A stretch of 64,000 nucleotides of DNA from Streptomyces sp. NBC_00376 (GTDB lineage: Bacteria > Actinomycetota > Actinomycetes > Streptomycetales > Streptomycetaceae). Numbering within the stretch: the stretch's first letter is position 1; each line of letters starts with the position of its first letter. The position numbers and the translations under genes are program-made. Below are positions 9,505-60,910 of this stretch, piece by piece. The notes beneath the pieces are model-generated. The model was not told the origin of the DNA, made no database searches, and worked only from the letters and a program-made list of their open reading frames with translations. The stretch is from positions 310,001 through 374,000 of the forward strand of contig NZ_CP107962.1 of assembly GCF_036077095.1 (NCBI RefSeq), given 5' to 3'.

Positions 9505-9647
9505 GGGGGTTCCTCCATGCGGAATGGGTGGGCGGGTCCGGGCGGTGACGGCCGTCCGCGCACCACGGCCGCACGCGGCACGAAGGGCGCCGGGTGCGGT
9601 GCGGGGACGGCCGATAGCGTTCGGGCACAAAAAAAGGGGGCTGCTGG

Positions 9648-10172: not shown

Positions 10173-10214
10173 GGGTGGTGACCTCCGGGCCACGTGAAAG
10201 GGAGGAAACAGCGG

Positions 10215-28629: not shown

Positions 28630-28800
28630 CCTTCGCGACCTGCGCTTACCCAGCCCCTTTGCAGCTTCTTTGCCAAGTCTCGTGGTGCATGTATCTCGAT
28701 TCGCCGTAGTCGCGCAGCGAGTGTAAGGCCCGGTCCTCATATCGCAAGCACATCGGGCTATTTGGGGCTGTTGTCAGTGCGGGGTGCTATCTCTGAGCAC
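28630..28800 (-). promoter_or_regulatory. Leader of CRISPR array 1 and cas3 upstream region
   Basis: Between the newest repeat and cas3. Read toward the array it contains GGCAAAGAAGCTGCAAAGG next to the first repeat, which resembles GAAAGTCAAGAAATGGCAAA before array 2. It must carry the leftward array promoter and probably the rightward cas3 promoter. Confidence 0.65.
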
Positions 28801-31668: not shown

Positions 31669-31864
31669 ATTATGCATGCTTTCTCCACTTGGCCCAGATA
31701 TTTCCGCTACGTTCCAAGTTCGGCCTCCCGTAGTCGAGTTGTCGCCGCTCGCCACTTTGCCCCATACATCCCGGTGCTCAGAGCGGCGACACTGGCAGCG
31801 CGCGACGGGGGCCATCGGCTTCCGACCAGGCCCAGCATCTTCTGAATGACGACAGGACACGTCC
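31669..31864. other. Spacer between cas3 and cas8e
   Basis: 196 bp without a supported frame; likely holds the promoter for the Cascade operon, since the following seven genes are tightly packed. Confidence 0.45.
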
Positions 31865-34218: not shown

Positions 34219-34289
34219 CCGCTCCCCCGCCGACTACGTGACCACGTATCCCATCCATTGAGCACAATCCGCACGAAGGGGTAAGCAGC

Positions 34290-35474: not shown

Positions 35475-36334
35475 GCGCCGCCCTCCCCGACCCCGAACCG
35501 GGGCTCCTCCTCCGCCTGGCCGGTCCCCTCCAGTCCTGGGGCCTGCACAGCCACTTCAACGAACGCGACACCGCCACCTTCCCCACCCGCTCCGGCATCA
35601 TCGGCCTCCTCGCCTCAGCCCTCGGACGACGCCGGGACCAGCCCATCAACGACCTCGCAGCACTGCACATGACCGTGCGCACCGACCGGCCCGGCGTGAT
35701 GCTGCGCGACCTGCACACCGTCGGCGGCGGTCTCCCCGCCAAAGCCACCGTGACCACAGCCGAAGGCAAGAAACGCACCGGCGACACCGGCACCCTTCTC
35801 ACCCACCGCTACTACCTCGCCGACGCCGCCTTCACCCTCGCCCTCACCACACCCCACCCCACCGGCGAGGACCGCGCACTCCTCAACCGCTGCGCCAACG
35901 CTCTGCGCAGCCCCCACTGGCCCCTGCACCTCGGGCGACGCTCCTGCCCGCCCGAAGGCCCCATCCTGCTCGGACAGAGCGACGACGCACTGCACCACCT
36001 CGTCCACCTGCCCCTCGCCGCCCGCCCGGCCGTCGGCTCCGGTCCGGGAGGCAGGCCGGTGGAATTCCTGGCCGACCGCCCACTGAACCACCTCCCCGCC
36101 CCAGCCCACACGATCTGCGACACGAACGAGGACGGTTCCCACCCCTCCGGCGAACTCAACGACCAGCCGCTCAGCTACCACCCCCGCCAACGCGCCTACC
36201 GCGCCCGGCCGCTGTACCGCCGCACCCTGCTCCTCCTGCCCTCCCAGTTCGCCGGACTCGGGAGAGAGCAGCTCACCGCGCTGGGCCACTACCTAGAGAC
36301 CCGGCTGAACACCACCGAAGGGAGCCCACGATGA
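35471..36334 (+). CDS. cas5e: Cascade subunit Cas5e (CasD)
   Basis: 287 residues, somewhat longer than the ~220-250 norm. The start EPGLLLRLAGPLQSWGLHSH and TFPTRSGIIGLLASALGRRR are clear Cas5 signatures, with a C-terminal HPRQRAYRARPLYRR region. It caps the 5' handle of crRNA. Both ends overlap its neighbours by 4 nt. Confidence 0.96.
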   Translation: MSAALPDPEPGLLLRLAGPLQSWGLHSHFNERDTATFPTRSGIIGLLASALGRRRDQPINDLAALHMTVRTDRPGVMLRDLHTVGGGLPAKATVTTAEGKKRTGDTGTLLTHRYYLADAAFTLALTTPHPTGEDRALLNRCANALRSPHWPLHLGRRSCPPEGPILLGQSDDALHHLVHLPLAARPAVGSGPGGRPVEFLADRPLNHLPAPAHTICDTNEDGSHPSGELNDQPLSYHPRQRAYRARPLYRRTLLLLPSQFAGLGREQLTALGHYLETRLNTTEGSPR

Positions 36335-36993
36335 CCCTCTGGCTCACCCGGATCGTCCCCGACACCCGCTCCCGCGACGCCCGCCGCGACCTCAGCGGCG
36401 CCATCGGCATGCACCGCCGCATCATGAGCCTCTTCCCACCCGATGCCGGCCCCGACCCCCGCGCCCGCTTCGGAGTCCTCTTCCGCACCGAAGACACCCC
36501 CACCGGGCCGAACCTGCTCATCCAGTCCACCCACGAACCCGACACCAGCCGCCTGCCCGACGGCTACGGAACCACCCTCACCCGCCCACTCGACGCGCTC
36601 ATCGACGCCATCCGCCCCGGCCTCACCATCCGCTACCGCTGCGTCGCCAGCCCCGTCCGCAAACCCGGCGCCACCACCCGCGCCCTCTACAACCTCCCAC
36701 CCGTCGTCCCCCTCACCGGCACGGCAGCCGACGATTGGTGGCTCCGCCAAGCCGACCTCAGCGGCCTCAAACCCCTCACCCACCACTCCCACCCCCTGGA
36801 CGCCGCACGAGGAGAACGCCACCCCGACGGCGCCCCGCCCCAACGCATCCGCCACGCCCGCACCCAGTTCGACGGCACCGCAGCCATCATCGACACCGAC
36901 CTGCTCAGGACAAAAATCCTCAACGGGATTGGCCGAGGAAAGGCTTACGGCTGCGGCCTGCTCAGCATCGCCCCTGCGAGGCAGCCCCAGTGA
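36331..36993 (+). CDS. cas6e: CRISPR RNA endoribonuclease Cas6e (CasE)
   Basis: 220 residues from ATG 36331. LTRIVPDTRSRDARRDLSGA, then GMHRRIMSLFP (His in the usual catalytic place, as in His20 of the E. coli enzyme) and the C-terminal glycine-rich loop GIGRGKAYGCGLLSIAP are present. It cuts the repeat at the base of the CCGCGCGAGCGG stem and stays bound to the 3' handle. Overlaps cas5 and cas1 by 4 nt each. Confidence 0.96.
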   Translation: MTLWLTRIVPDTRSRDARRDLSGAIGMHRRIMSLFPPDAGPDPRARFGVLFRTEDTPTGPNLLIQSTHEPDTSRLPDGYGTTLTRPLDALIDAIRPGLTIRYRCVASPVRKPGATTRALYNLPPVVPLTGTAADDWWLRQADLSGLKPLTHHSHPLDAARGERHPDGAPPQRIRHARTQFDGTAAIIDTDLLRTKILNGIGRGKAYGCGLLSIAPARQPQ

Positions 36994-37982
36994 GCCCACG
37001 CCCCGCACCCAAACCACTCACCACCAGCAACGCCCGGCGCAAACTCGCCGCACCCACCGTCGCCATGCTCCCCCGCATCGCCGACTCCCTCTCCTTCCTC
37101 TACCTCGACATCGTCCGCATCCACCAGGACGACACCGGGGTCTGCGCAGAAGTCACCAGCGAACAACGAGGAACAGAAACCGTCTACCTCCCAACCGCAG
37201 CGCTTGGCTGCGTCCTTCTGGGCCCCGGCACCTCCATCACCGCACGCGCCCTCGCCACATTCGCCAGAAACGGCACCACTGTCGTAACCACCGGATCAGG
37301 CGGCGTCCGCTGCTACTCCGCTGCCGTCCCCGAATCCCTCAGCACTCTCTGGCTCGAACGCCAAACCCGCGCCTGGGCCAACGACACCCACCGCCTCGCC
37401 GTCGCCCAGGCCATGTACGAACTCCGATTCGGAGACGGCACCGCAACCGACGGAACCAACCTCGACAAACTCCGCGGCATGGAAGGCCAACGCGTCAAAG
37501 CCCACTACCAACTCCTCGCCCGCCAATACAAGATCGGCCGCTTCCGCCGCTCCTACGACCCCGACACCTGGGACAGCCAAGACCCCGTCAACCTCGCCCT
37601 CTCCTCAGCCAACACCTGCCTCTACGGCATCGTGCACGCCGCAATCACCGCACTCGGCTGCTCACCCGCCCTCGGCTTCGTCCACAGCGGCAACCAACAA
37701 GCCTTCGTGTACGACATCGCGGACCTCTACAAAGCCGAACTCACCATCCCCCTCGCCTTCTCCCTCCACGCCTCCCCCAACCCCGAAGGCGAAGCACGCC
37801 GCTCATTCCGCCACGAACTCCGCCTCTTCCAGCTGCTCCCCCGCATCGTCACCGACATTCAGCAGCTCCTCGACCCGAACCACACCTACGAATGCCCCGA
37901 CCCCGAAGAACAACTGGTCGACCTGTGGGATCCGGTCACCGGTTCCGTACCCGCCGGCGTCAACCACGGGAAACCCCTGTGA
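36990..37982 (+). CDS. cas1: CRISPR integrase Cas1e
   Basis: 330 residues from GTG 36990, which overlaps the cas6e stop; the frame upstream is a shadow of cas6e. Signatures: MLPRIADSLSFLYLDI, ALATFARNGTTVVTTG, MEGQRVKAHYQLLA (metal-binding Glu), GFVHSGNQQAFVYDIADLYK (His and Asp of the active site). With Cas2 it inserts new spacers at the leader end. Confidence 0.97.
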   Translation: MSPRPAPKPLTTSNARRKLAAPTVAMLPRIADSLSFLYLDIVRIHQDDTGVCAEVTSEQRGTETVYLPTAALGCVLLGPGTSITARALATFARNGTTVVTTGSGGVRCYSAAVPESLSTLWLERQTRAWANDTHRLAVAQAMYELRFGDGTATDGTNLDKLRGMEGQRVKAHYQLLARQYKIGRFRRSYDPDTWDSQDPVNLALSSANTCLYGIVHAAITALGCSPALGFVHSGNQQAFVYDIADLYKAELTIPLAFSLHASPNPEGEARRSFRHELRLFQLLPRIVTDIQQLLDPNHTYECPDPEEQLVDLWDPVTGSVPAGVNHGKPL

Positions 37983-38007
37983 CCCTTCCACCGGAAGAGC
38001 ACGGCCC

Positions 38008-38319
38008 ATGTCCTCAATGATCGTCATCTCGGCCACCGCCGTCCCCGACCATCTACGCGGCGCCCTCACCCGCTGGCTCCTCGAAGTCACACCCGGGTTG
38101 TACGTCGGTACCGTCTCGGCCAAGGTCCGCGACGAACTCTGGGCAGCCGTTGCCGCCTGCACCGACGATGGAATGGCAGTCCTTGCCCACCCGGCCGACA
38201 ACGAGCAAGGTTTCCAACTACGAACAGCGGGCACCCGCCGCCGCGAACCCCTCGACTTCGACGGCCTCACCCTGATCGCCTTCCAGCGAGAAAGTCAAGA
38301 AATGGCAAACCCTCTCTAA
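38008..38319 (+). CDS. cas2: CRISPR-associated Cas2e
   Basis: 103 residues. MIVISATAVPDHLRGALTRW and LEVTPGLYVGTVSAKVRDEL are typical Cas2e (CasF), with a short C-terminal strand. GGAAGAG lies 8 nt upstream of ATG 38008. It bridges two Cas1 dimers in the integration complex. Only 18 nt separate its stop from the first repeat of array 2, so the leader must reach into its 3' end. Confidence 0.95.
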   Translation: MSSMIVISATAVPDHLRGALTRWLLEVTPGLYVGTVSAKVRDELWAAVAACTDDGMAVLAHPADNEQGFQLRTAGTRRREPLDFDGLTLIAFQRESQEMANPL

Positions 38320-38337
38320 CGTGCCAGGTCAAAGAGG

Positions 38338-41300
38338 GTGCTCTCCGCGCGAGCGGAGGTGAGCCGACGTACGGGCGGGACACGGGGCGGCTCCAGTTGT
38401 GCTCTCCGCGCGAGCGGAGGTGAGCCGCTGCTCGAGCTCCTCGCCTACGCCGACCCGGCGTGCTCTCCGCGCGAGCGGAGGTGAGCCGCCCTGTACCTAC
38501 GTCACGATCAGACCTTGACGGTGCTCTCCGCGCGAGCGGAGGTGAGCCGGTCATGTACCCGGCGGAGGTCGAGGAGCGGCGGTGCTCTCCGCGCGAGCGG
38601 AGGTGAGCCGGCCATGGACATGGCCGGGGACGAACTGGAGCAGTGCTCTCCGCGCGAGCGGAGGTGAGCCGGTCGAGAAGCTCCTGCAGGGCCAGGGCTG
38701 GACGTGCTCTCCGCGCGAGCGGAGGTGAGCCGTAGTTGGTAGAGATCATCACGGAGTGCGTGGAGTGCTCTCCGCGCGAGCGGAGGTGAGCCGGACTCAG
38801 GAGCCAAGGTCCACGTCATCGCCAAGTGCTCTCCGCGCGAGCGGAGGTGAGCCGTTCCGATCAGCGACCAGGGGAAACGCGCCCGCGTGCTCTCCGCGCG
38901 AGCGGAGGTGAGCCGGTCAGGATGGTGAGGGCGAGGGCGATGCCGCCGTGCTCTCCGCGCGAGCGGAGGTGAGCCGCCGACACGGTCACGACGACGGCGA
39001 CCGGCAAGGTGCTCTCCGCGCGAGCGGAGGTGAGCCGTGCCCGGGCGATGAAGACCAGCCTCCAAGACCGTGCTCTCCGCGCGAGCGGAGGTGAGCCGCC
39101 CTGCACTGCCGCCCTCTGCCGCACCGTCCCGTGCTCTCCGCGCGAGCGGAGGTGAGCCGCGGTCCGCGGCCGCGTCGGCAACACCCCCGCCGTGCTCTCC
39201 GCGCGAGCGGAGGTGAGCCGCACTCGCCTGGATCTCCGCCGTGCTCCCCACCGTGCTCTCCGCGCGAGCGGAGGTGAGCCGGCGCGGCCCCGGGGGTCAG
39301 ACCCGGGGCCACAGTGCTCTCCGCGCGAGCGGAGGTGAGCCGGCTGCCGAGCCACGCAGATGGTCCTCCAGACGGTGCTCTCCGCGCGAGCGGAGGTGAG
39401 CCGAAGGCCGCCGTTGCCGAGCAGCTCGCAGCCCCGTGCTCTCCGCGCGAGCGGAGGTGAGCCGCGGCTCATCACGTTGACGGATTTCACCGGGACGTGC
39501 TCTCCGCGCGAGCGGAGGTGAGCCGGCAGCGCCGAGTGAGAACAGCTCACGAAGCGTGTGTTCTCCGCGCGAGCGGAGGTGAGCCGGCGCCTGAACGCGG
39601 GTGCGCCGCCGACCCGCCGTGCTCTCCGCGCGAGCGGAGGTGAGCCGATCCGACAGCATTCGGCGGCCGTGTAGTTGTTGTGCTCTCCGCGCGAGCGGAG
39701 GTGAGCCGGGGGAATCATGGGCGACCCGTATCCGGGCAAGGTGCTCTCCGCGCGAGCGGAGGTGAGCCGCGACGATCACGGACTGCGTGGACTCCAGCAC
39801 CGTGCTCTCCGCGCGAGCGGAGGTGAGCCGTCCGCAGGAGTGCCGGCCGGGTGCGCGGCGAGGTGCTCTCCGCGCGAGCGGAGGTGAGCCGAGGTGTCGG
39901 CGGTGGGTCAGCGCTGACACAGCGTGCTCTCCGCGCGAGCGGAGGTGAGCCGTCCATCGACCAGCCGTCCCTATCGGTGCAGGCGTGCTCTCCGCGCGAG
40001 CGGAGGTGAGCCGCGCCCTATGGGCGACGCGTGGGCATGGGCCCGGTGCTCTCCGCGCGAGCGGAGGTGAGCCGCTGACGCCGTACGTCACGCAGCGGCC
40101 CGCTCCGTGCTCTCCGCGCGAGCGGAGGTGAGCCGTCGGCTGACGACAAGGCGCTGATCGAGTACCTGTGCTCTCCGCGCGAGCGGAGGTGAGCCGGCGA
40201 CCCAGAACCCTTTCCGTGCGGACCGCCGGTGCTCTCCGCGCGAGCGGAGGTGAGCCGATCACCGCGCAGATCGTTCACCTCACCGATGAGTGCTCTCCGC
40301 GCGAGCGGAGGTGAGCCGGGGGCCCGGCGGGACGGAAACGGCGCTCAGAGGTGCTCTCCGCGCGAGCGGAGGTGAGCCGGTGGGCGACGACGTAGGGCCG
40401 ATCGTCGGATAGTGCTCTCCGCGCGAGCGGAGGTGAGCCGCGCCGCTTCCCCCGAAAAAGAACACCAGGGAAGTGCTCTCCGCGCGAGCGGAGGTGAGCC
40501 GTCGTCAAGGCCCTCGGATCTGAGTACGGGGCCGTGCTCTCCGCGCGAGCGGAGGTGAGCCGACCAGTGGGCGGGCCTCTGCCGGAGGGCATGCGTGCTC
40601 TCCGCGCGAGCGGAGGTGAGCCGACTGCCGGTACAGGTCGTCGTGAAAGGGGATCGTGCTCTCCGCGCGAGCGGAGGTGAGCCGAAGGCCCGGCTCCCGG
40701 CCAGGGGAACCGAGCCGTGCTCTCCGCGCGAGCGGAGGTGAGCCGCAGCTGGCGTACCTGGCGGCCCGGCCGGAGACGTGCTCTCCGCGCGAGCGGAGGT
40801 GAGCCGTCCAGTGGACCGCGGGCATCGTCGAGGAGCAGTGCTCTCCGCGCGAGCGGAGGTGAGCCGTCGGTCGAACAGTCCGCCGTCATGTCGCTGGCGT
40901 GCTCTATCACGGGCAAGGAGAACGTGGTCTTCCTCGGCCCGCCCGGCACCGGCAAGACTCACCTGGCCATCGCGCTGGGCATCCGCGCCTGCCAGGCCGG
41001 TCACCGCGTCGCGTTCGCCACCGCCTCTCAGTGGGTCGACCGCCTGGCTGCCGCCCATACCACCGGAAAACTCCAGGACGAGCTCTTGCGCCTCGCGCGC
41101 GTCCCCGTTCTGGTGATCGATGAGGTCGGCTACATCCCGTTCGAACCGGAAGCAGCGAACCTGTTCTTCCAGCTGATCTCCGGCCGCTACGAACGCGCGT
41201 CCGTAATCGTGACCAGCAACAAGCCCTTCGGACGCTGGGGAGAGGTCTTCGGCGACGACACCGTCGCCGCCGCCATGATCGACCGTCTCGTCCACCACGC

Positions 41301-42346
41301 CGATGTGCTCTCCTTGAAAGGAGACTCCTACCGGCTGAAAGACCGCGACATCGGCCGCACCCCGAACGCGGCAACCGGCTGAACAACTGCACACGGGGTC
41401 AAAAATCACCGACCCCAAAGGGGTCCAGGTTCGAAGACCGCCGACACCCCAGACCTGGGTGACGCCGGTGCTCTCCGCGCGAGCGGAGGTGAGCCGGAAC
41501 AGGGCCAGGACTCCGCCACCGACCAGGAGTGCTCTCCGCGCGAGCGGAGGTGAGCCGCGCGGCCGAGGCGCGGAAGGCGAAAGCGACGGGTGCTCTCCGC
41601 GCGAGCGGAGGTGAGCCGATCGCCGCCGTCGTCCTGGGCGACCCCGAGCGGTGCTCTCCGCGCGAGCGGAGGTGAGCCGGTCCGCGTCAAGGACGCCAAG
41701 GGGTCCGGGAAGTGCTCTCCGCGCGAGCGGAGGTGAGCCGGGGAACCGGGTTGGGCCGCAGCCGCTCAAGACGTGCTCTCCGCGCGAGCGGAGGTGAGCC
41801 GGCCCAGTCAGGCACAGGAGGTACGACCAGTATGTGCTCTCCGCGCGAGCGGAGGTGAGCCGGCGCCGCGGTCGTCCCAGGCGTGCGTGCCCTCGTGCTC
41901 TCCGCGCGAGCGGAGGTGAGCCGTCACACCAGCCCCAGACGCCCTCACGGCGCGTGTGCTCTCCGCGCGAGCGGAGGTGAGCCGGCTCTGCATACCAACC
42001 TCCTGGCGATCGGAGAGTGCTCTCCGCGCGAGCGGAGGTGAGCCGGTCCCGCAGGGGGTGGCGTGATGGCCACTTCCGTGCTCTCCGCGCGAGCGGAGGT
42101 GAGCCGTCCCCGTCGACGTTCGGGCCGACGTCCGCGTCGTGCTCTCCGCGCGAGCGGAGGTGAGCCGGCTTTTCCACCCACTCCGGCGCCGAAGACGCCG
42201 TGCTCTCCGCACGGAGGTGAGCTGCTTGGGGGATCAATGCCGGAGCGTGAGTTGTTGTGCTCTCCGCGCGAGCGGAGGCGAGCCGTGCTAACGCCGTTAG
42301 CACCTGACTCTGCGGCCGTGTTCTCCGCGCGAGCGGAGGTGAGCCG
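38338..42346 (+). CRISPR. CRISPR array 2 (type I-E, about 58 repeats)
   Basis: Repeats of 29 nt (GTGCTCTCCGCGCGAGCGGA, then GGTGAGCCG) every 61 nt. 42 copies run from 38338 to 40838; a 7-nt truncated copy at 40899 meets an istB fragment; 15 more run from 41468 to 42318. The last three are degenerate: 42200 lacks four bases in the stem, 42257 has GGCGAGCCG, 42318 starts GTGTTCTCC; 39557 also begins GTGTTCTCC. Such decay marks the old end. Transcription is rightward from the cas2 side. The spacer 42286-42317 contains a parS-like palindrome. Confidence 0.97.
40906..41446 (+). mobile_element. istB: IS21-type remnant: istB fragment within array 2
   Basis: From a broken repeat (40899-40905) the sequence enters istB at ITGKENVVFLGPPGTGKTHL (Walker A), continues with VPVLVIDEVGY (Walker B), VTSNKPFGRWGEVFGDDTVA, and ends at 41382; ~64 bp follow to the IS end (ACA at 41444-41446, inverse TGT). 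istA, the N-terminal part of istB and the other IS end are missing. The 3' part equals the fragment in array 1. The AAA+ motor is probably inactive. Confidence 0.88.
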
Positions 42347-43255
42347 ATGAGGCGGACCGGCACGGCACTGCGGTCTCGGCCATGGCCTTGGCCACGGACG
42401 TACGGACGCTCCGGTCGTAGATCAAGGCGAAGAGCGAGACTCCGGCCACGCCGGATCCCGAGCAGGCGATCGCCGATCTGCCGAGCCGAGGTGTCTGTAC
42501 GGAACCCTGGGCCACCGGGGCCGGTTGGTGCGCGGTGACCGCAGCCCGACCGGGCCCACCGGCCCGGCAGCATCACCGGGCCCGACCGGTGCGGCCGGAC
42601 CGGCCGGGCTCGCGGGCCCGACTGGCCCTGCGGGAGCGGACGTGTCGGACGGGACGGCGGGGCCGATGGCCGGAACGGACAGACGTGCCTCGATGGGTAC
42701 AGCCTCCAGCCGCTGACGTCCGATTCGGATGCGCTGGTGTGCCGCCGTGACAGTGCGCCGAGCAGCCCCGGCTCCAGTCCGAGCCCGCACCTCGCCGTAG
42801 ACAGCTGCCTCGACGTGATCCCGGTGCTGCCACCGGCTGGGACACTGCCTGCTTCGACCTGATCCACTCCCCCGCTACGGACGCCGTCGTGCCCGATGCT
42901 CCGGCAACGTGAACGACGTCTACCCTCCCCGACACGGTTCACCGTCTACACCCTGTAGGTCCGTTGGACCTGACGTCGGTGACTGATCGTTCGTTCCGGC
43001 CAGCAGGCGCCCTTGTGGGTCGGATCGTGCGGCTTGTAGAGCAGGGGTCTGTTCTCATCGAACCCGGTTGGCCCCGAGCTTTTGACCAGGGCGGACTAAC
43101 TTCGCTGAGACGCCGTTCCTTGGGCGTTGCGTCCCTCACGACTGGTCGATGTGTGGCGACTAGGTTCGATGAGACAAGTCGCGGTCGACTCGGTTCATTG
43201 AGACAGGACACCAGGGAGTTGGCGTCTTCGGCGGTCCAGGCGGTCGTCTGGGAGA
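42347..43255. other. Gene-free stretch between array 2 and partition locus
   Basis: No convincing gene on either strand; several short frames are of low-complexity Gly/Pro/Ala type (42525-42750). It holds the motif GGTTCGATGAGACA at 43163 and 43192 (second copy with one change) and an inverse copy at 43053, in a region rich in stem-forming sequence. Confidence 0.5.
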
Positions 43256-51845: not shown

Positions 51846-54800
51846 CTACCTCTGAGCCCGGCGGGTCCACGCCTCGATGCCGGGCGGTTCCTCGAATCCG
51901 GCGACCGAGATCCAGGCTCGTACGAGGTCCTCTTTCGTCGTCACGTGGATGGGGCGAAACATATTGGCCAGGGGCCCCCCTTCGGGGAAGGCAATGGCGA
52001 ACAGCTCCTCCGACACCACCGCGGCCACCGGCGATCGGCCCCCCGCGTCGAGAGCGGCACGCAGAGCCGGTGAGTCCGCCAGCCGGGTAGCCGTCACGAA
52101 CGCTCGACCGCGCCACACCTGCTCGTCCCTGCCGATCTCCGCACTGTGCAGAGCGACGCGCAGTCTCAGCTCTCCGGATACGGCGTGGTCGTGCAGAGCG
52201 CTTTCCACGTGCCGGAGCAGATCCCGGACGAGACTGGCGCGACGGGTCTCGTGGGGGAAGAACAGGAGCATCTCGCCGTCCCCTGTGCGGCGCCTTTCGC
52301 AGTGCACGTCGGACACGTTGGTGAGCACGATGCCAAGGACAGCGTGCAGCGCGTGTTGCCGGTCGACCTGGACGGCCGTCTCGGCGTCGGAGAAGCCCGA
52401 GATCTCGGCTACGAGCACGACATATCTCCGCACGGGGCCCGGTGCATCGGCGTGCTGACTCAGCGGCTGCTGGACACCCGCGTCCGATTCCCCATTGTTG
52501 AGACGGGCGCGACTCCACTCCGTTCCGGCCTCCACTGCCAGCGTGGTCAGTACCCGCCCCAGGTCGCTGCGCTCCAGCAGGGGGCGCAGCACGTACCGGG
52601 CCGAAGGATCGCTGCTGTGTGCACGCAACCAGTTGAGCGCCATCTCCCCGGCTTCCCGTGCCTCTTTCTGGGCGAGGTCCTCCCTGTACAGCAGGGCGTT
52701 GAAGACGAACTGGGCGTCGCGGGTGGTGCCGTGACGTCGCAGCCAGCGCATCGCCGGAATCACGGTCCCACGCGCCTCCTCGGGGGTGAGGTCGGTGCGC
52801 TGCAACAAGGGGCGCAGGACGAACTTGGCCGACGAGTCGATGCCGACCGCCCGGAGCCAGTCGATGCCCAGGGTGACGAACCGGGTCAGCAGCTCCGGCG
52901 GCAGGTCGTCCCTGCGCAGTGCGGCACTCAGGACGAACTGGTTGGTGCGGTGGCCGCCATGCAGGTCCAGCCAGTTCAACGCGCGGTCTGCGACGCTGTG
53001 GATCTGTTCCTCTGACAGCTCGCGGTGCCGGAGCAGGGGGCGTAGCACGAACTGCGCCGACAGACTCCCGCCATGGACGTCGAGCCACCCCATGGCGTAC
53101 TCCAGAACCTGTCGTGCCTCGCTTTCGCCCAGTCCGGTGACCGCGAGGAGGGGGGCGACCACGAACGCCCCGGCCTGGATGCCTCCGTGTACGCTCAGCC
53201 AGCCCAGCGCGTGGTGCACAACCTCTGCAGTCTGTTCCCGGGACAGGCCGGTACGTGGCAGTAGACCGTTGAGCACGTACTGGGAGCTCTCGGTGCCTTG
53301 GTCGGCGCGCAGCCAGGCCAGGGCCTGGTCGGCGGCGGCCCGTGCCTCTGCTGGTGTGAGATCGGTGCGCCGGAGCAGCTTGCGCAGCGCGGGAGCGGCA
53401 TTCGCGTGGACGACGGACGGCTCACGTCCCCCCTGAGCGAAATCCGCGAGAACGCGGAAGCGCTCGGCATGCTCCGTGTCGCCGCGTTCGCGCGCGGCCC
53501 GGGCGATGGCCTCCAGGTCCGGTGCGGACGCGTGCTCGGCCAAGGCGTTCCACAGGCTTTCGGGCGGGGCGAGACGGCGGCGGAGCTCACGTCGGTGCCG
53601 CACGATGTCGTCCGAGAGCCGGAAGTGCGGCCGCGAGCCGCCCGCGTCGTGCGCCGCCGGCGGCACGGGGGACAGGCCCATGCCGATCAGGGCGTCGACA
53701 GGGACATCCCCCGGAATGGACGGGGCCGACCCGGTGCCGAGGTAGTCCACGGCGCCCTCCGCGAGGAGTGTGCCGGACATCAGAGGGCCGTGTCCGCAAC
53801 GGCGGGCATCGATCGCGGCATCCACGACGGCGTCCATGACGGCGCGTTCGACGCCCGTCCCGGAGAGATACCGCTCGACCGCGCTGTCACCCGTCGGCAG
53901 GGTCTCGAAGACCAGGCTCTCTTCGTACAGGGTGCGCGCCTGCACGTGAGGATCGTCGTCGGTGGCTCCGGGGACGTTCGCCAGGGTGTTCCCGTCCTCG
54001 GTCCTCAGCGATCCCAGTACGAGTACGGGACCGCGATCGACCGTGAGCAGAAGGGACCGCAATCCGGACGCGATGCGCTCACCCCGGCCGCCGTCCGACC
54101 GGTCCAGGAGGTAGCGTTCCGCCTTGTCCAGCCATATCACCGTGCACGGGCCGATCGTGGACGGGGCATCCAGGGCCGCTTCCAGCTCGGCACCGGAGGA
54201 AGGCTCCCACAGCCACCAGTCGCGCGGCAGCAGGCGCGCGGCCTCAACGCTCGCCCGGCTCTTGCCGGAGCCGGGCGGCCCCACGAGCAGAGCCATCACG
54301 CTGGCCCCGGCGGCGCAGTCCCGCACGACGGCCTGTAGCCGTAGGTCGCTGTCGCGCACCTGGTACGGGGCCAGTTCCAGCCTCTCGGCGTCCTCGACGA
54401 GTTCTGCGACGGGACGGCCGAGTCGTGAGTGTCGTCCGGACGGTCTGCGGCCTCGCCGTTTCTCCGCCGCGGCAGCGTGATGGCGCAGCGCGGCGAGCCG
54501 GAACAGCGTCCGGCCGCCGTCGCCTTCCGGCTCCGCCTGTCGGACGAGATGGCGTGTCAGCCAGTCGAAGGCCTTTCCGTCGGTCGGAACGCTCCCTCCG
54601 GCGAACCACTCGTACAAGGTGGTGGACCGGAGGGACACCGGAGGCGACTCCTGGGCGGCCCGCCCGATCATCTCCGAGTGCGTCGGACTGCCGGCCCGCC
54701 TGTGCAGTGTCCGCAGGGCGGCGGCGAGCGCGGCCGGGCTGTCGGGTGGAGCCGCGCCGTACCGGGTCTGGAGGAGGAAGACAACGGCCACGCCCGCTTG

Positions 54801-56912
54801 AGGAGCCTCCCGCTCGACCACGGTCACGGACCGGTCCAGAGGCGCGAGACCGTCGGGCTTGTCCGACTCGTCGAGAAGCATCCTGAACTCGATGAGGGAG
54901 GAGGCTGCCGCGCCGCTCCCGAGCGCGTCCTCCACCGTGACATGCAGGGGGCCGCCGGGGGCGTGCCACACCAGGCCTTGCCCGGTCGCGTCGTCCTCCT
55001 GGGGCCGCCTTCGCAGGTCGACACCCTCGGTGGAGGGGTACCTGCTGAGATCGTCGACCACATCGACAGGCTTGAGCGGGCCTTCCGCCGTGCGGAGACC
55101 GTCGAGGTAGGTGTCCCGCCCCGGCCAGCCGCCCAGGGGAGACGACAGCGCAGAGCGCGTGTATGCGATCAGGTGCCGCAAAAGGATTCTGGCATCCCGG
55201 AGCGTGTCGACGGCAGGGCCCATGAGGCTCTGCACCGCATCCCCAATGTCACTTGCGACGATCGACGCCTCGTCGTCCGGACCGGCCGCCCCACCCGCAC
55301 GTCCTTTGCCGGGGATCGGGCGCTCTGTTGTCTGCCCGCGACCGACCGAGCGCGCAGGCACGGTGACGGAGTCCGCCAACGGCGAATCCGCCACGGGGAG
55401 TTCGTCCGCTGCCCACGCGTCGTGCAGGACGGCCGCGATGCCCTGCGGAGCATACGGATGCGCGGCGGCGTGCCGGCTGAAGGCGGCTCGGGTCTGCCAC
55501 TCGTCGTGGGTCGTCAGGTGCGTGCGCAAATACGTCCGGGCGGCAGCGTGCAGGACCAACACCGGATCACCGCCGGGGTCGCGCCGTATCACGAACAGGC
55601 CGCTGGTCAGGACCTCGGCCAGATCGGAATACGTGGCCGCGGGGACCGCCTGGTCGCGCAGCACGTGCAGGAGGGGAAGGGGCAGCTCCCGCAGGCCGGA
55701 GCAGAGGACGGCCAGGCGCACGGCGGGGGCCGGCGCCGTATGGGCGAACGCCTCGGCCAGCAGGGCGGGATCGGGCTGCCGGGCCGGAGCCGATCCCGCG
55801 CGCCCCTCGGGGAGGCGGCCGGTGGCGGGGACGAGGACGGCGCCGCATCCAGCGGGGTCGCTGCGCATGAGGGTGTTCGCCCAGGCGCCCAAGGAGTGCG
55901 GGGTGCACGACACGACGGGCAGGGCGGACCACGACCCGGCGGTCTTGTCATCCTCTTCGTACGCTCGAGGTCTCAGCCGCGGCGGCACCGTGAAGCGGAG
56001 GGAACCGTTGGGACTGCCTGCCCGACCACCCGTCACGCTTACGGCGGTCAAGTTCAGGGCGGAGCGGCGCCACAGACGCGGGGGCAGCGGGTCGAGCAGC
56101 GCCACCGGGATCTGCTCGCCCCACTCGCGCAGGAGCAGCCAGGGCGCCGGGGTGTGCCAGCCGCGGGCGGCGCAGTCGGAGACCACCACGACCAGGCGCC
56201 TGCCCTGGGTGCCGCTGCCGTGGTGGGGGACGCGCGCGCCGCGAACCTCGCGCCCGTGGTGGTCGAGTACACGCGGCTCGGGTCCCTGCCACTCCAGCCG
56301 CCAGGTGTGGACAGCGCGGAATCCTCCCAGAGCGGTCAGGAGCCGGATCACCGCGCGTGAGGTCTCCTCCCACACGCTCATGCTCAGGGAGGAGTCCACG
56401 AGGACGACCGCCTCGAACCAGGGCTCCGGAGCAGGGCGGAACAGCGGGACCAGGGGGCCTCCGCGTGCGTAGTGCTCCACGGTGGCTTCGATGTCCAGCC
56501 GACTGCGCCCACCACGCCGCCACGGCCTGCGGAACGGCTGGATCGCACGGCCGACGGCCAAGGCGTCCGGCAGCGGATCGGCGCGCCCCAGGGACAGGGG
56601 GACACCGCGCACTGTCGTACCCGTCCCGGAGCGGCGCAGGGACAGCTCCGCGCTTCCCCTGCTCGGTGCACCGGCGGCCCTCACGTTCTCGGGCGCGTCC
56701 CCGTCGGCACCCGCCACCACGTCGGGCGCCGGGTCCGGTGTCATCTCGTCGGCATGGACGGCCGTCGACGGTACGCCGCCTTCTCCGACGACACCGGAGG
56801 CCGCCAGCCACACCGCGTCGGCGAGGGTGCCCGCGTCTGCCCCGGCAGGCAGCGACACCCGGCTCAGCGCCTGGAGAAGGCGGGCCAGAGCGTCAGGCAC
56901 GGGAGAGTTCAC
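51846..56912 (-). CDS. vWA-like (SAV_2336-type) + STAND-type NTPase + helical repeats + nucleotide-cyclase-like protein
   Basis: 1688 residues from GTG 56912. Residues ~1-430 match the SAV_2336 N-terminal region: VVLVDSSLSMSVWEE is a vWA MIDAS motif (DxSxS, ~170), and VVVVSDCAARGWH, HTWRLEWQGP follow. Near 875-885 a P-loop LLVGPPGSGKSRASVEAA and near 930 VIWLDKAERYLL (Walker B) form a STAND-like ATPase. Residues ~1180-1450 hold about eight repeats of ~35 residues with the pattern W-L-x2-HGG...FVLRPLL. From ~1490, YVVLVAEISGFSDAETA and ERRRTGDGEMLLFF form a class III cyclase-like domain, with Glu for the first metal Asp. Last gene of the operon; its start overlaps the MoxR gene by 20 nt. Probably sensor plus effector of a conflict system. 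Confidence 0.85.
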   Translation of the reverse strand: MNSPVPDALARLLQALSRVSLPAGADAGTLADAVWLAASGVVGEGGVPSTAVHADEMTPDPAPDVVAGADGDAPENVRAAGAPSRGSAELSLRRSGTGTTVRGVPLSLGRADPLPDALAVGRAIQPFRRPWRRGGRSRLDIEATVEHYARGGPLVPLFRPAPEPWFEAVVLVDSSLSMSVWEETSRAVIRLLTALGGFRAVHTWRLEWQGPEPRVLDHHGREVRGARVPHHGSGTQGRRLVVVVSDCAARGWHTPAPWLLLREWGEQIPVALLDPLPPRLWRRSALNLTAVSVTGGRAGSPNGSLRFTVPPRLRPRAYEEDDKTAGSWSALPVVSCTPHSLGAWANTLMRSDPAGCGAVLVPATGRLPEGRAGSAPARQPDPALLAEAFAHTAPAPAVRLAVLCSGLRELPLPLLHVLRDQAVPAATYSDLAEVLTSGLFVIRRDPGGDPVLVLHAAARTYLRTHLTTHDEWQTRAAFSRHAAAHPYAPQGIAAVLHDAWAADELPVADSPLADSVTVPARSVGRGQTTERPIPGKGRAGGAAGPDDEASIVASDIGDAVQSLMGPAVDTLRDARILLRHLIAYTRSALSSPLGGWPGRDTYLDGLRTAEGPLKPVDVVDDLSRYPSTEGVDLRRRPQEDDATGQGLVWHAPGGPLHVTVEDALGSGAAASSLIEFRMLLDESDKPDGLAPLDRSVTVVEREAPQAGVAVVFLLQTRYGAAPPDSPAALAAALRTLHRRAGSPTHSEMIGRAAQESPPVSLRSTTLYEWFAGGSVPTDGKAFDWLTRHLVRQAEPEGDGGRTLFRLAALRHHAAAAEKRRGRRPSGRHSRLGRPVAELVEDAERLELAPYQVRDSDLRLQAVVRDCAAGASVMALLVGPPGSGKSRASVEAARLLPRDWWLWEPSSGAELEAALDAPSTIGPCTVIWLDKAERYLLDRSDGGRGERIASGLRSLLLTVDRGPVLVLGSLRTEDGNTLANVPGATDDDPHVQARTLYEESLVFETLPTGDSAVERYLSGTGVERAVMDAVVDAAIDARRCGHGPLMSGTLLAEGAVDYLGTGSAPSIPGDVPVDALIGMGLSPVPPAAHDAGGSRPHFRLSDDIVRHRRELRRRLAPPESLWNALAEHASAPDLEAIARAARERGDTEHAERFRVLADFAQGGREPSVVHANAAPALRKLLRRTDLTPAEARAAADQALAWLRADQGTESSQYVLNGLLPRTGLSREQTAEVVHHALGWLSVHGGIQAGAFVVAPLLAVTGLGESEARQVLEYAMGWLDVHGGSLSAQFVLRPLLRHRELSEEQIHSVADRALNWLDLHGGHRTNQFVLSAALRRDDLPPELLTRFVTLGIDWLRAVGIDSSAKFVLRPLLQRTDLTPEEARGTVIPAMRWLRRHGTTRDAQFVFNALLYREDLAQKEAREAGEMALNWLRAHSSDPSARYVLRPLLERSDLGRVLTTLAVEAGTEWSRARLNNGESDAGVQQPLSQHADAPGPVRRYVVLVAEISGFSDAETAVQVDRQHALHAVLGIVLTNVSDVHCERRRTGDGEMLLFFPHETRRASLVRDLLRHVESALHDHAVSGELRLRVALHSAEIGRDEQVWRGRAFVTATRLADSPALRAALDAGGRSPVAAVVSEELFAIAFPEGGPLANMFRPIHVTTKEDLVRAWISVAGFEEPPGIEAWTRRAQR

Positions 56913-57855
56913 GCAGGATCAGCTTGCGCAGCTCCTTGTACTGGTCCGGTGCGGGTGCGTGGTCGCCGGTGAGCAGGGCCACGGCGTTCAGCAACTGGTC
57001 GATGGCCAGATGCTCGCCCGCACCGACACGCCCGGCGAACGCTGTGACGAGCTTCTCGACACTGTCAGGCACATCGTCGAAGTGAGCCTGGACGATCCCT
57101 TTCAGTAGTCCTTCGTCCAGCGGCGGCATGGCGTAGCGGATGCAGCGCCGCAGGAAGGCCGGTGAGAAATCCCGCTCGCCGTTGCTGGTCAGGAGGATGA
57201 ACGGGAACTGCGTGCACCGCACGCGACCGCGCTCGACGGAGTGCTCCTCGTCGCTGTGCCACTGCCGGACCAGGACGCGGGGGCGGCGGTACCGTACGAG
57301 TTCGGGGATCTCGAACTCACCGCGCTCCAGCACTTCCAGCAGATCGCTGGGCAGGTCCAGGTCGCTCTTGTCGATCTCGTCGATGAGCAGGGCGCGCGGC
57401 CGCTCCCCGGGCAGCAGAGCGGTACCCAGCGGACCCAGTTGGAGGAAGGGGGAAATGTCGTCCCGGCTGCGCCCGTGCCCCGCCGCCCTGCCCGCCCGTC
57501 CGTGCGGCGTCGCGGCGCGCAGGCTCTGGGCATGGATGCGCCCCAAAGCGTCGTAACGGTACAGGGCTTCGGTCAGCGAGCTACGGGACGTGATGTGCCA
57601 GCGCAGCACAGGGCCGAGGTCCAGCTCGTGAGCGACCTGCTCGATCACGGTGGACTTGCCCGATCCCGCCGGTCCGCTGACGAGGAGTGGCCGGCGCAGG
57701 TGTAGGGCCGTGTTGACCGCGTCCACGAGACCAGGCGGTGGCTGGTACTGCCGGTGCTGCGGCGTACGGGGGAACGTGCGCCACGGGGGCGGATCGGCCA
57801 GCGGAGTGTCCCGCTGCTTGCCGTCGCCGCGGTAATAGGGATTCCAGCTCACCAT
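56893..57855 (-). CDS. MoxR-type AAA ATPase
   Basis: 320 residues from ATG 57855, with GGAGGA directly upstream. Walker A is SGPAGSGKSTVIEQVA (~60-70), Walker B ALLIDEIDKSDLDLPSDLLE, sensor 1 FILLTSNGERDFSPAFLRRC, with the Arg of the finger in FLRRCIR. MoxR ATPases act as chaperones for vWA proteins; here the vWA-like partner is the next gene. It overlaps VMAP upstream (ATGGTGA) and the large gene downstream, so the three should be made together. Confidence 0.93.
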   Translation of the reverse strand: MVSWNPYYRGDGKQRDTPLADPPPWRTFPRTPQHRQYQPPPGLVDAVNTALHLRRPLLVSGPAGSGKSTVIEQVAHELDLGPVLRWHITSRSSLTEALYRYDALGRIHAQSLRAATPHGRAGRAAGHGRSRDDISPFLQLGPLGTALLPGERPRALLIDEIDKSDLDLPSDLLEVLERGEFEIPELVRYRRPRVLVRQWHSDEEHSVERGRVRCTQFPFILLTSNGERDFSPAFLRRCIRYAMPPLDEGLLKGIVQAHFDDVPDSVEKLVTAFAGRVGAGEHLAIDQLLNAVALLTGDHAPAPDQYKELRKLILRELSRA

Positions 57856-59906
57856 TCCTCCTCGGGGCCGACCACGACGCGTTGTTCGAAGGGTCGGCAG
57901 AATTCCAGCCAGGCTTCGTCGTGCCAGACCGCGCGAACGTCCCCCAGACACGTCCCGCAGTCCTTGTGTTCCGCGGACCACCGCTGCCGGTAGGCGGCGG
58001 CCAGGCCGTCAGGAAGGCTGTGCCAGCTCTGCTGAACCAGGGCCCGCAGGGCATCGGTCGCCCGGGTGTCCGAGCGCGGCCACAGGATGATCGGAGCGTA
58101 GGGCAGCAGCTGCTCCAGGGTGTCCTGCAGGCTGTCGGGATGATGGTCGAGCCCGACCACGGTGTCATACCGGCCGGTCATGAGGCCCCGTTCGAGCCCT
58201 TGCCGGTCGTCCAGGACAGACACCCCGATCCACTCCACCGCCACGGCGGCGGTCATGCCGCGCAGGGTCTTACGGGCAGCGTCGTTCATCTCGGCATTCT
58301 CTTCGGCCGGATCCATACGGCCGCTCCACCGGACCACGACGTCGTGGTTGACCCCGAGGAGGCGATGGCCGACCTTCGCCTCCTCGGGCTGCCAGCGCGC
58401 CAGCAGGTGAGCGGGGGCTGCGACGTCCACGTTGACCAGCTGTTCCGGCGAGGGGAGCCGGTCGCGCGCCCACGCGAGCACGGCACCGATCGCCCGGCCC
58501 GTGCCCAGGCGGTCCGCGGACCCACACCGGAAGCGCTGATGTACCGGCAGCCGCTCCCCGGTACCGACGAGCCAGGCATCCACTTCCTCCGGCCAGCCGG
58601 TCAACGCGCCGGCCAGGCTGACGACGAGGCGCAGCTCCCCCTGCTGCCGCTTCCGCGCGAGCTCAGTCCTGGCATCGTTAAACTCGGTGACCGCCCCGAG
58701 GCCACGCGCCCACTGCCGCAGCTGTGCGTCGACCTCGGCCTCACCACACAGTTCGGCGAGGGCTGCGACGAACCGGGCAGGCGCCTTCCACCGGGGCTCA
58801 TCGACGCCCTCCACACGCAGCGCCGCGTACTCGACCAGGTCGCGCAGCAGCTCGGCGCCCTCCGCGTCGGGAGGAAGCCCCGCCAACTGGCGTGCGTCAC
58901 GCAGCAGTTCGCTGGTCAGGACGTCGGCGAGCACCGTGTTGAGGAGCGCCACCGTATCGGCACACGTGAGGAGCGTGGCCACCACCTGGATGACCCGGGC
59001 GCGCCACCGTGGGTCGGCCACGTCGTCCACCTGGCCCTCCTGGGCGAATGTGTGCAGACCATCGAGCTCCCCGCGCGTCAGAGGCGTCGGCAGCCGCATG
59101 TCGGCCCGCCACATCGACACGGCTTCTTCGAGGTCCCGCAGGCCCACCGGCCCCACCGGGCCGCCTGCTGCACCGGGGGCGGAGCCCACGTTGCGGGCCA
59201 GCCACAGCCCCTCGGCGACGAAGGGGTCGTTGTCGTACTCGAACCGTCCCACGGCCTGCCCGACGACACGGCTGCGCAGCTTCCTGGTGAGCTGCCTGTC
59301 CGCGTACACCTTGGTGCCCGCTCCGGCGAGACCCTCCCGCAGTACTTCGACCAGCGCGAAGGACAGGCGCATGCCCCGGGCGGCCTGGTCGGCGGCCGCG
59401 GCGGTGAGGACGGACAGTCTCGTACGGCCGGCCCTGACCCCGCCCGCGATCCGCCCCGCGTCCGGCATCGCGCCGGCCGCGTGACAGGTGTCGACGAGGG
59501 CGATCACGCCCTCGACCCCGGGCTCGTCGACGGCGTCTGTGAGCAACTGGCCCACGTGCAACGCGGACATGGTGCTTCCGGTCGTGGACCCGGCGACCAT
59601 GTAGTACAGGTCGGCCTGTTGCGGCGGGGTGAAGCCGTGTCCGAGCAGCGCCACCACCAGGACGGCGTTGTCCTCCCGCGCGCACCGGACCGCCTCGTGC
59701 ACGGCCTTGAGGACATCCTCGGTGGTGAGCGTCGAGCCGACCAGGAGGGAACCGTGCTCGCCAGCGCGAGGGGCACAGGCCCCGAGCGCCGGGTCCGTCA
59801 GCACGGCATGCAGATCCTGGGCGGCCTTCCTCAGCCGGGACAGCTTGCCCATGGCCGTGCACTGCGCACCCACAACGACAACGTGCCGGCGTCGCTCGTC
59901 GGTCAC
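57849..59906 (-). CDS. Caspase-like protease fused to VMAP domains
   Basis: 685 residues from GTG 59906; the longer frame is a shadow of the hydrolase gene. Residues ~1-235 are a caspase-like (C14/CHAT) fold: the catalytic His in VALLGHGFTP (~88) and Cys in ALVDTCHAAG (~139), with MSALHVGQLLTDAV and RLSVLTAAAADQAARG around them. Residues ~260-450 are a helical VMAP-M-like region; ~480-680 a VMAP-C-like domain ending HDEAWLEFCRPFEQ. In the VMAP ternary systems this protein links the effector to the MoxR/vWA pair. Cleavage target unknown. Confidence 0.85.
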   Translation of the reverse strand: MTDERRRHVVVVGAQCTAMGKLSRLRKAAQDLHAVLTDPALGACAPRAGEHGSLLVGSTLTTEDVLKAVHEAVRCAREDNAVLVVALLGHGFTPPQQADLYYMVAGSTTGSTMSALHVGQLLTDAVDEPGVEGVIALVDTCHAAGAMPDAGRIAGGVRAGRTRLSVLTAAAADQAARGMRLSFALVEVLREGLAGAGTKVYADRQLTRKLRSRVVGQAVGRFEYDNDPFVAEGLWLARNVGSAPGAAGGPVGPVGLRDLEEAVSMWRADMRLPTPLTRGELDGLHTFAQEGQVDDVADPRWRARVIQVVATLLTCADTVALLNTVLADVLTSELLRDARQLAGLPPDAEGAELLRDLVEYAALRVEGVDEPRWKAPARFVAALAELCGEAEVDAQLRQWARGLGAVTEFNDARTELARKRQQGELRLVVSLAGALTGWPEEVDAWLVGTGERLPVHQRFRCGSADRLGTGRAIGAVLAWARDRLPSPEQLVNVDVAAPAHLLARWQPEEAKVGHRLLGVNHDVVVRWSGRMDPAEENAEMNDAARKTLRGMTAAVAVEWIGVSVLDDRQGLERGLMTGRYDTVVGLDHHPDSLQDTLEQLLPYAPIILWPRSDTRATDALRALVQQSWHSLPDGLAAAYRQRWSAEHKDCGTCLGDVRAVWHDEAWLEFCRPFEQRVVVGPEEEW

Positions 59907-60910
59907 CTCTTCAGCGCTTCGATCAAGGGCCCGGCGACGCCCGGCTGTCGGAGGTACTTCGTTGCCGTGTGGACCCACAGACCGTCGGAATTCACGCGAC
60001 TGGTCACCGGTAGGACCCCCGCCGCGTTGGGCAGCATCCAATTCTCCAGGCGAGGTCGGCCCACCACGATGTCGTCGCGGTCCCAGAAGTTCAGCCACCG
60101 CTCGACGCGGTCGGGGGTGCGGGGCGGCTGCGGCACCAGCCGTTGCAGCACCGCCGCCCCGGTGGCCAGCGGGGATCCCAGCGTCATCAGCAACGGAACC
60201 GGCCCCTTGTGGTCGCGCAGCGCTTCGAACGCGACCACGGTGCCCAGCGAGTGGCTCACCATGATCAGCGGCCGGCCGGGATCGGTCCCCTTCAGTACCC
60301 GCTCGCGGATCCGAGCGTCCAGAGTGCGCCGGGTGCCGTCGGCTTCCCGCCTGCGGAGGTAGCGCCCGACCTGGGCCAGGTGCCACAGCAGCGGTATGCC
60401 GCTCGCCCACTGCGCGGACCCCCGCAGCCCCGGTACCTGCAACAGGGTCGTCAGAACCCTCCCGAGAACACGGAACGGCTCTCCGGCGCCCTGCTCCTCG
60501 TCCTCGTTGTCGCCCGGCAACTGCGCGCGGGCGTCTTCGGCCACGGCTGCCGTCCGCCGGTCCCCCCGCTCCAGGGCCTGCCGGGCGAGTTCGTCGACCA
60601 GCGCCTCGACGAACTCGGTCATGAAGGCGGCGTCCTCCTGTTCGCCGAGCGTCCTGGCTCCGTCTCCCTGGGACTCGGCGTCGGTGAACAGGTCGCTGTA
60701 GTCGGCGAAGCGCACCTCTGCCAGCCAGCCCTGCGTCAGCCCGGAGACCGCGTCGGCGTGTCCAGCTCCGCGTGCTCCCTCGGCCAGGGCCGCGAGCCAC
60801 TCACGTCGTTCACGCGCGGCGTCCCGGAGGCCGCCGATCCCGTGGACGAACACCAGTTGAGGAGTGCCCGAAACGCTCACTCGTGCCCCCGAAGTACCTT
60901 GCTCCGACAA
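59903..60910 (-). CDS. Alpha/beta-hydrolase (lipase-like), first gene of VMAP operon
   Basis: 335 residues, ATG 60910. Oxyanion motif VFVHGIGG near residue 20; nucleophile elbow VSHSLGTVVAFEAL near 225; Asp in NFWDRDDIVVG (~280); His in DGLWVHTATKYL (~315): a full Ser-Asp-His triad. An inserted helical stretch (~60-150) carries many acidic residues. No signal peptide, so it acts in the cell. Its stop overlaps the VMAP gene (GTGA). Within conflict operons such hydrolases may attack lipids or other esters, or be controlled by the caspase; this is inference. Confidence 0.85.
   Translation of the reverse strand: MSEQGTSGARVSVSGTPQLVFVHGIGGLRDAARERREWLAALAEGARGAGHADAVSGLTQGWLAEVRFADYSDLFTDAESQGDGARTLGEQEDAAFMTEFVEALVDELARQALERGDRRTAAVAEDARAQLPGDNEDEEQGAGEPFRVLGRVLTTLLQVPGLRGSAQWASGIPLLWHLAQVGRYLRRREADGTRRTLDARIRERVLKGTDPGRPLIMVSHSLGTVVAFEALRDHKGPVPLLMTLGSPLATGAAVLQRLVPQPPRTPDRVERWLNFWDRDDIVVGRPRLENWMLPNAAGVLPVTSRVNSDGLWVHTATKYLRQPGVAGPLIEALKR

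Follow-up and report, generated by a model that had tools for sequence, protein, structure and literature searches.

Introduction

The vWA-MoxR-VMAP ternary systems were defined by prediction (Kaur et al. 2020, eLife 9:e52696, PMC7159879). As that paper describes them, a VMAP protein that bears a caspase is always accompanied by a neighbouring alpha/beta-hydrolase gene, the MoxR ATPases carry the N-terminal motifs WxhapG and PsWRxa, and several of the cyclases fused to vWA proteins are inactive. The ternary systems were extended in a 2021 eLife paper, and a 2023 Science paper linked vWA-MoxR-VMAP genes to CRISPR loci. For VMAP systems diversified by diversity-generating retroelements (DGRs), it has been proposed that the tail of the vWA protein is the sensor and the N-terminal enzyme of the VMAP protein the effector (PNAS 2024, PMC10907252). 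In a separate group of immune systems, Tuck et al. 2025 (PMC12799240) describe gated pro-nucleases that are switched on by a protease encoded with them, either one fused to an immune core or, in Canu, a MALT1-like caspase, and suggest further enzyme classes as protease-activated. Here, we describe a four-gene operon in a 64,000-nucleotide stretch of Streptomyces sp. NBC_00376 (contig NZ_CP107962.1, positions 310,001 to 374,000; hereafter the window), in which the active sites of a hydrolase and of a caspase-VMAP protein are conserved across related loci, and the C-terminal tail of a giant vWA protein is exchanged between clades and has, in this tail type, lost catalytic residues.

A caspase/alpha-beta-hydrolase member of the vWA-MoxR-VMAP class

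Judged by sequence, structure model and gene order, the operon is almost certainly a vWA-MoxR-VMAP ternary conflict system of the caspase/alpha-beta-hydrolase subtype. Positions 51846-60910 of the reverse strand are filled by four overlapping open reading frames (ORFs) that encode, in reading order, the hydrolase, the caspase-VMAP protein, a MoxR ATPase and the 1688-residue vWA protein (the giant); with the starts picked here, the successive overlaps are 4, 7 and 20 nt. An earlier reading of the window from its sequence only had found the same four genes (with a Ser-hydrolase as the first) and the same class of conflict operon, and both hold. The class is borne out by the PF19965 match, which places the middle of the VMAP protein in the defined type VMAP-M2, by the MoxR motifs, by a vWA domain with a metal-ion-dependent adhesion site (MIDAS) and by the gene order. 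Close relatives at NCBI carry the names 'vWA-MoxR associated conflict system protein' and 'SAV_2336 N-terminal domain-related protein'; nothing on SAV_2336 came up in a literature search. The arrangement itself is not new, the pairing of a caspase VMAP with a neighbouring alpha/beta-hydrolase being stated by Kaur et al. 2020 (PMC7159879): the four-gene order was already known, and the locus is a further member of the class predicted in 2020.

The structure model of the VMAP protein gave a MALT1-like caspase fold, one of the checks proposed with the sequence-only reading. Fold and His-Cys dyad together place the domain in the caspase superfamily (C14), and caspases filled the listing of a whole-model fold search; the NCBIfam caspase match on the protein was sub-threshold. 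At the N-terminus of MoxR we found W4-N-P-Y-Y-R-G10, which exceeds the printed motif by one residue, and PPWRTF. PF20028 (VMAP-C) had no match to the window protein at E up to 1 and matched one of the 20 aligned proteins; in that relative (P0107) the match covers residues 465-673 (E 1.5e-9), a region co-aligned with window residues 413-685.

Some further observations concern the fold of the VMAP protein. At the level of the model as a whole, Foldseek listed ROK kinases and RNase HI as weak matches (E 0.09-0.23), and residues 426-497 follow a beta-beta-beta-alpha-beta order; VMAP-C may have an RNase H-like topology. Searched against PDB sequences, the VMAP alignment had two weak matches (E 0.02), both to a single unrelated phosphatase domain, which we judged to be chance. 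In one 714-residue protein (P0112), a partial VMAP-M2 match precedes a protein kinase domain.

The hydrolase-caspase core across related loci

Twenty aligned VMAP-M2 proteins, used as the query in a single scan of named genomes, gave 63 loci in Streptomyces, Kitasatospora, Actinacidiphila, Amycolatopsis, Kibdelosporangium, Actinomadura, Micromonospora and Catenulispora (individual loci are cited below by our own numbers). The order hydrolase, VMAP, MoxR, vWA recurs across them, as the neighbourhood search suggested with the sequence-only reading was meant to establish. Where the N-terminus of the caspase was present, the hydrolase lay immediately upstream in 59 of 60 loci (55 by the rule of the script and four touching at distance 0); MoxR followed VMAP-C in 59/59, and the vWA gene followed MoxR in 57/59, the exceptions being L016, which ends at its contig, and L063, which is frame-shifted. 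All four genes are also present on the linear Streptomyces plasmid NZ_CP109179.1, where they overlap by 4 to 8 nt. Its hydrolase (L117, 6057-7004) is annotated 'SAM domain-containing protein', a name that is probably misleading because the window's homologue has only a sub-threshold SAM_2 match. Streptomyces cyaneochromogenes (NZ_CP034539.1) carries copies of the system about 11 kb from both chromosome ends (L042 and L066), with identical vWA cores and tails; these presumably sit in terminal inverted repeats.

Catalytic residues of the core were almost completely conserved, in counts that include the window and both of these copies. In the hydrolase, S221, D277, D280 and H314 were present in all 60 aligned sequences, the last three being candidates for the remainder of the triad. 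The caspase dyad was kept (His 60/61, Cys 59/61), as were MoxR K67 (59/59) and D159 (60/60) together with W4 (57/58), G10 (58/58) and R26 (59/59) of its N-terminal motifs. Both MIDAS aspartates of the vWA core were invariant in 21 giants.

The hydrolase and caspase are also inherited together. Strong hydrolase matches (E <=1.8e-112), sought in 81 genomes of the genus, occurred in exactly the 10 with VMAP-M2 over the cut-off. The sole locus without a hydrolase, L053 of Amycolatopsis xylanica, retains a full VMAP-M2 match, and its caspase has a Glu plus a deletion at the His site and a Trp replacing the Cys; a search for the hydrolase left one weak match (E 0.013), some 4 kb upstream and not counted as a partner. 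This joint loss, in one case only, suggests what a functional hydrolase-caspase pair would predict. The tail of L053 combines an AAA_16 match with a protein kinase that lacks a DFG-type motif.

Almost 200 residues separate the oxyanion HG of the hydrolase from S221. Within this distance lies a poorly conserved segment of 44-73 residues (60 sequences), which ends in Q140-G141 followed by R147, and this QGx5R motif was present in all 60 VMAP-linked hydrolases. An alignment-free search found no QGx5R anywhere before HSLG in 18 of 20 unlinked paralogues, these being the ones among 32 weak hydrolase matches that were given as loci; the exceptions were L084 and L086. L084, the nearest unlinked relative, is an orphan hydrolase near an IS605-type transposase gene. 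The region numbered L104 shows the nearest unlinked orphan hydrolase (6182-7117, reverse strand) with QGx5R and an IS605-type transposase gene nearby, and no caspase motif among the ORFs listed across 14 kb. A PDB sequence search with the hydrolase alignment gave no match at E up to 0.01. We consider the variable loop with its invariant QGx5R a candidate gate or docking site.

Hydrolase-caspase pairs occur outside the VMAP systems as well. A caspase gene adjoins some of the unlinked paralogues (L092, L093, L097 and L098, with a DTC motif; L087, with a weak profile match). At L105, L106 and L107, an upstream alpha/beta-hydrolase stands beside a caspase fused to WD40 or NACHT/AAA-like regions; for the L107 hydrolase the identity is 39% over 116 residues (E 7e-14). 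The pair is therefore found on at least two different cores, QGx5R belonging to the VMAP-M2 core.

The exchangeable tail of the giant protein

Beyond the vWA core, the tails of related giants include TIR, NaeI, helicase and SpoIIE types, exchanged between clades: 15 tail groups require at least 15 changes on the core tree, and L008 has a vWA core 65% identical to that of the window and a tail without similarity. In the tail comparison that includes L008, L005 (a giant split between frames) and L044 appear as false singletons, and L048 and L060 are cut by contig ends.

The STAND-like module and helical repeats described in the sequence-only reading are upheld, with eight repeats at a measured period of 38 residues. 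AAA_16 matched 14 of 21 relatives. The following site counts cover the 27 giants of the window's tail type with letters at the sites. The Walker A Lys was kept in 20 and lost in seven, and the next Ser/Thr was kept in 18; the window itself has the P-loop. Free-standing STAND relatives without a vWA core keep GK[ST] in 13/13, so it seems that free-standing proteins were the source from which the giants captured the module, with the P-loop Lys since lost in several lines.

For the C-terminal domain, the structure model gave the class III nucleotide-cyclase fold that the sequence-only reading had anticipated. The cyclase positions are given the roles usual for class III enzymes. The first metal Asp was present in 10/27 giants (Glu in 15, Asn and Arg in one each), the Lys position held K in none, the specificity Asp was kept in one and the Asn position held N in none; the second metal Asp (26/27) and the Arg (27/27) were retained. 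The window has Glu1503 for the first Asp, Arg1541 for the Lys, Val1599 for the specificity Asp and Val1606 for the Asn, and keeps D1545 and R1610. With metal-binding and substrate-specifying residues missing, we call the domain cyclase-like and not a cyclase. Loss of the Asn alone is no proof of inactivity, because by alignment it is also absent from Ma1120, which we take to be an active cyclase. Among the four parts of the tail, the cyclase-like domain was the least identical to the window in 10 of 20 relatives and tied in one more.

A Foldseek search with the C-terminal 1008 residues of the giant ranked human SAMD9 first (E 1.2e-7, TM 0.14), a match that would signify only an arrangement of NTPase plus helical repeats. 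A helix-turn-helix in residues 690-840 is a pattern reading that had no library match. Nine loci (L015, L018, L019, L020, L022, L029, L032, L054 and L055) have NB-ARC tails, an independent tail group for which we used regular expressions only. In eight of them (not L055) there was no GK[ST] before the LLVLDD-type motif, several having GAGRT; by these sequence patterns they are a second case of a NOD-like receptor (NLR)-like tail with an altered P-loop.

Feature coordinates and genomic setting

Table 1. Features of the operon and of the nearby CRISPR-Cas genes, in window coordinates
Feature	Position	Strand	Details
Alpha/beta-hydrolase, 335 aa	59903..60910	-	SHSLG nucleophile S221; weak Abhydrolase matches under curated cut-offs
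Hydrolase variable-length segment, residues 83-139	60494..60664	-	Between oxyanion HG (23-24) and S221
Hydrolase QGx5R (Q140, G141, R147)	60470..60493	-	Candidate gate or docking motif
Caspase-VMAP protein, 685 aa	57849..59906	-	
Caspase domain, residues 2-240	59187..59903	-	Catalytic H90 and C141
VMAP-M2 middle region, residues 196-412	58671..59321	-	PF19965, E 7.1e-57
VMAP-C-like C-terminal region, residues 413-685	57852..58670	-	Co-aligned with PF20028-matching relative P0107
MoxR AAA ATPase, 320 aa	56893..57855	-	N-terminal W..YY.G.G and PPWR motifs
Giant vWA protein, 1688 aa	51846..56912	-	
SAV_2336-type vWA core, residues 29-481	55470..56828	-	MIDAS D173 and D246; NF041121, E 1.3e-84, 284.8 bits (cut-off 200)
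STAND-like module, residues 736-1154	53451..54707	-	P-loop GPPGSGKS 878-885; AAA_16, E 0.0017, under cut-off
Alpha-solenoid of helical repeats, residues 1173-1476	52485..53396	-	Eight 38-residue repeats; Foldseek matches to Puf and importin-type solenoids
Class III nucleotide-cyclase fold, residues 1487-1674	51891..52454	-	Active site degenerate
Cas3	28348-31668	+	
Cse1	31865-33475	+	
Cas7-like CT1975	34290-35474	+	

The operon's contig comprises 429,427 bases of a 10.04-Mb genome that includes another contig of 8.94 Mb; a ParA-like gene and a DUF2637 gene are present, and relatives occur on 10 Streptomyces plasmid records, nine of which cover at least 80% of the query. On these sequence features the contig is likely a plasmid. 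Of 295 genomes in the genus, 26 had VMAP-M2 above the cut-off, a patchy distribution, and a phage collection gave no match. A type I-E CRISPR-Cas locus occupies about 25598-42300, some 10 kb from the operon, with two arrays of 61-nt period (46 and 56 repeat copies); an 865-residue ORF at 40345-42942 overlies a CRISPR array and is probably spurious. Patchy distribution, plasmid records and the CRISPR-Cas neighbour are indirect signs of a role in defence.

The same genome has a second vWA-MoxR-VMAP system on the 8.94-Mb contig (L067, 2930001-2946000; genes 3738-10756, reverse strand). It consists of a trypsin VMAP with a typical VMAP-C, a MoxR and a 1208-residue vWA protein without a Pfam match. 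Comparison of the window's VMAP profile with this trypsin-VMAP was not significant.

A model for activation and its alternatives

We tentatively favour a mechanism, plausible although short of probable, in which the tail senses, MoxR switches, and the caspase acts and probably activates the hydrolase, leading to death or dormancy. The exchangeable C-terminal module of the giant, a captured STAND-solenoid with a disabled cyclase, would be the sensor or bait, and the vWA domain and MoxR ring would form an ATP-driven threshold switch that holds the complex. Engagement of the module by an invader would lead MoxR to remodel the complex and free the caspase on the VMAP protein. The caspase would have a restricted range of targets, the hydrolase of the same operon most likely among them, and the variable hydrolase loop with QGx5R would gate or dock that enzyme. 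The active hydrolase, perhaps acting on membrane lipid, and the caspase would then stop or kill the infected hypha. The sequence-only reading had offered two ideas, nucleotide signalling and controlled self-killing by two hydrolytic enzymes; the first is set aside below, and the second, the better half, is strengthened here into a pro-enzyme hypothesis. A bolder form of it is speculative and on balance unlikely: hydrolase and caspase would be a transferable pro-enzyme/protease cassette, with the loop holding the hydrolase inactive until the caspase cuts near QGx5R, such cassettes being placed on unrelated immune cores and the disabled NLR-like tail of the giant serving as an exchangeable bait.

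In favour of the mechanism we count the gene order, the joint inheritance of the core, its kept catalytic residues, the exchange of the tail with loss of such residues in this type, the patchy and plasmid-borne occurrence, the CRISPR-Cas system in the window and the experimental precedent of protease-activated pro-nucleases (Tuck et al. 2025, PMC12799240). Several observations weigh against the favoured mechanism. L063 keeps its hydrolase although the caspase Cys is Tyr, a counter-case to strict pairing, at a locus that is probably decaying since its VMAP is frame-shifted. QGx5R could be structural or a docking site, and it was absent from the caspase-paired hydrolases of other systems that we examined. 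The pairwise distances of the five core pieces correlate at 0.83-0.91, which speaks for the mechanism but is expected from shared descent alone (53 rows, window included; L066, L063 and loci short of a piece, L053 among them, omitted; L044 unlabelled). The tail is inherited stably within clades and not reshuffled at every tip. Decay of the Walker B motif was rejected as evidence, the Asp being present in 12/27 giants and in 3/13 free-standing relatives, which mostly have Asn too. As a general rule, 'all tails inactive' was likewise rejected after a mixed outcome: TIR tails retain a Glu in what we take to be the catalytic region, and UvrD tails and five of eight ResIII tails retain motif II (by regular expressions only), so that tails at other loci may be genuine effectors. 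PADLOC called no system, giving no match for the hydrolase, VMAP protein or giant and weak matches for MoxR only. In the open-access literature searched, we found no experiment on any VMAP system, in line with the sequence-only reading, which knew of none on this arrangement.

Kaur et al. 2020 (PMC7159879) put forward a model with signalling in the other direction, which we think unlikely to apply here. The middle and C-terminal regions of VMAP would sense the invader, MoxR-vWA would set the threshold, and the caspase would cut the giant, whose freed C-terminal domains would be decoys, scaffolds or effectors, with the hydrolase as an accessory. Several other tails retain enzyme motifs, as this model would have it; in the present tail type, however, the P-loop Lys and cyclase site are not maintained whereas the hydrolase and caspase sites are, and the joint inheritance of hydrolase and caspase is left unexplained.

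It is also rather unlikely that hydrolase and caspase are parallel killing enzymes, both released by the switch and neither cleaving the other. Conservation of both active sites, the other caspase-adjacent hydrolases without QGx5R and the retained hydrolase beside the damaged caspase of L063 would all suit such an arrangement, but the joint loss at L053 and the strict upstream position suggest dependence, the single case being weak evidence.

We consider it improbable that the operon encodes a housekeeping or developmental protease complex of actinomycetes: MoxR-vWA pairs do act in assembly elsewhere (Kaur et al. 2020, PMC7159879), but the presence of this system in so few genomes of the genus, plasmid carriage, nearby CRISPR-Cas and exchangeable tails argue otherwise. 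Activation of the caspase or hydrolase by a cyclic nucleotide that the terminal domain makes has the clear class III fold, the conserved second metal Asp and Arg and the parallel absence of the Asn from Ma1120 in its favour, and is very improbable because the P-loop and cyclase sites (above all the first metal Asp, Lys and specificity Asp) are not maintained in this tail type and the domain is so often the least identical part of the tail.

Comparison with known systems

The locus bears on which end of a VMAP system senses and which kills, the active sites of the core having been kept over deep divergence and the tail exchanged, with catalytic residues lost in this type. Should the caspase activate the hydrolase, gating of pro-enzymes, a principle shown for nucleases, would apply to a second enzyme class as well. 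In the bolder reading, the hydrolase-caspase cassette would be the lipase-like analogue of the nuclease-protease pairs found in Hachiman, AVAST and Canu. The pro-enzyme hypothesis is testable with two purified proteins.

In its composition the operon agrees with the VMAP systems as Kaur et al. describe them: the order VMAP-MoxR-vWA, a caspase VMAP with a hydrolase, the VMAP-M type, the MoxR motifs, the MIDAS-bearing vWA, a variable tail and, in some tails, inactive cyclases. The present analysis adds the QGx5R loop and sets the catalytic residues of the core against those of the tail. The direction of signalling that we favour is opposite to theirs and the same as that proposed for the DGR-diversified VMAP systems (PMC10907252), whose described tail differs in having a DGR-mutated C-type lectin domain and whose protease is trypsin-like, whereas that of the window is a caspase. 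L105, L106 and L107 share the upstream alpha/beta-hydrolase and N-terminal caspase with the window, but WD40 or NACHT/AAA-like regions replace VMAP and their hydrolases lack QGx5R.

The likeness to HamMAB, Avs1 and Canu, as these are presented by Tuck et al., lies in a separate effector gene beside a protease, loop insertions with conserved residues and a pair that recurs on several cores. In HamMAB and Avs1 the protease is fused to the immune core, as here, and a MALT1-like caspase is common to Canu and the window. The partner in HamMAB, Avs1 and Canu is a metallo-beta-lactamase-fold nuclease with gating insertions, whose activation was shown, whereas the partner in the window is an alpha/beta-hydrolase and its cleavage is hypothetical. 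The caspases of Canu have immunoglobulin-like domains and stand upstream of the nuclease, whereas the caspase of the window stands downstream of the hydrolase.

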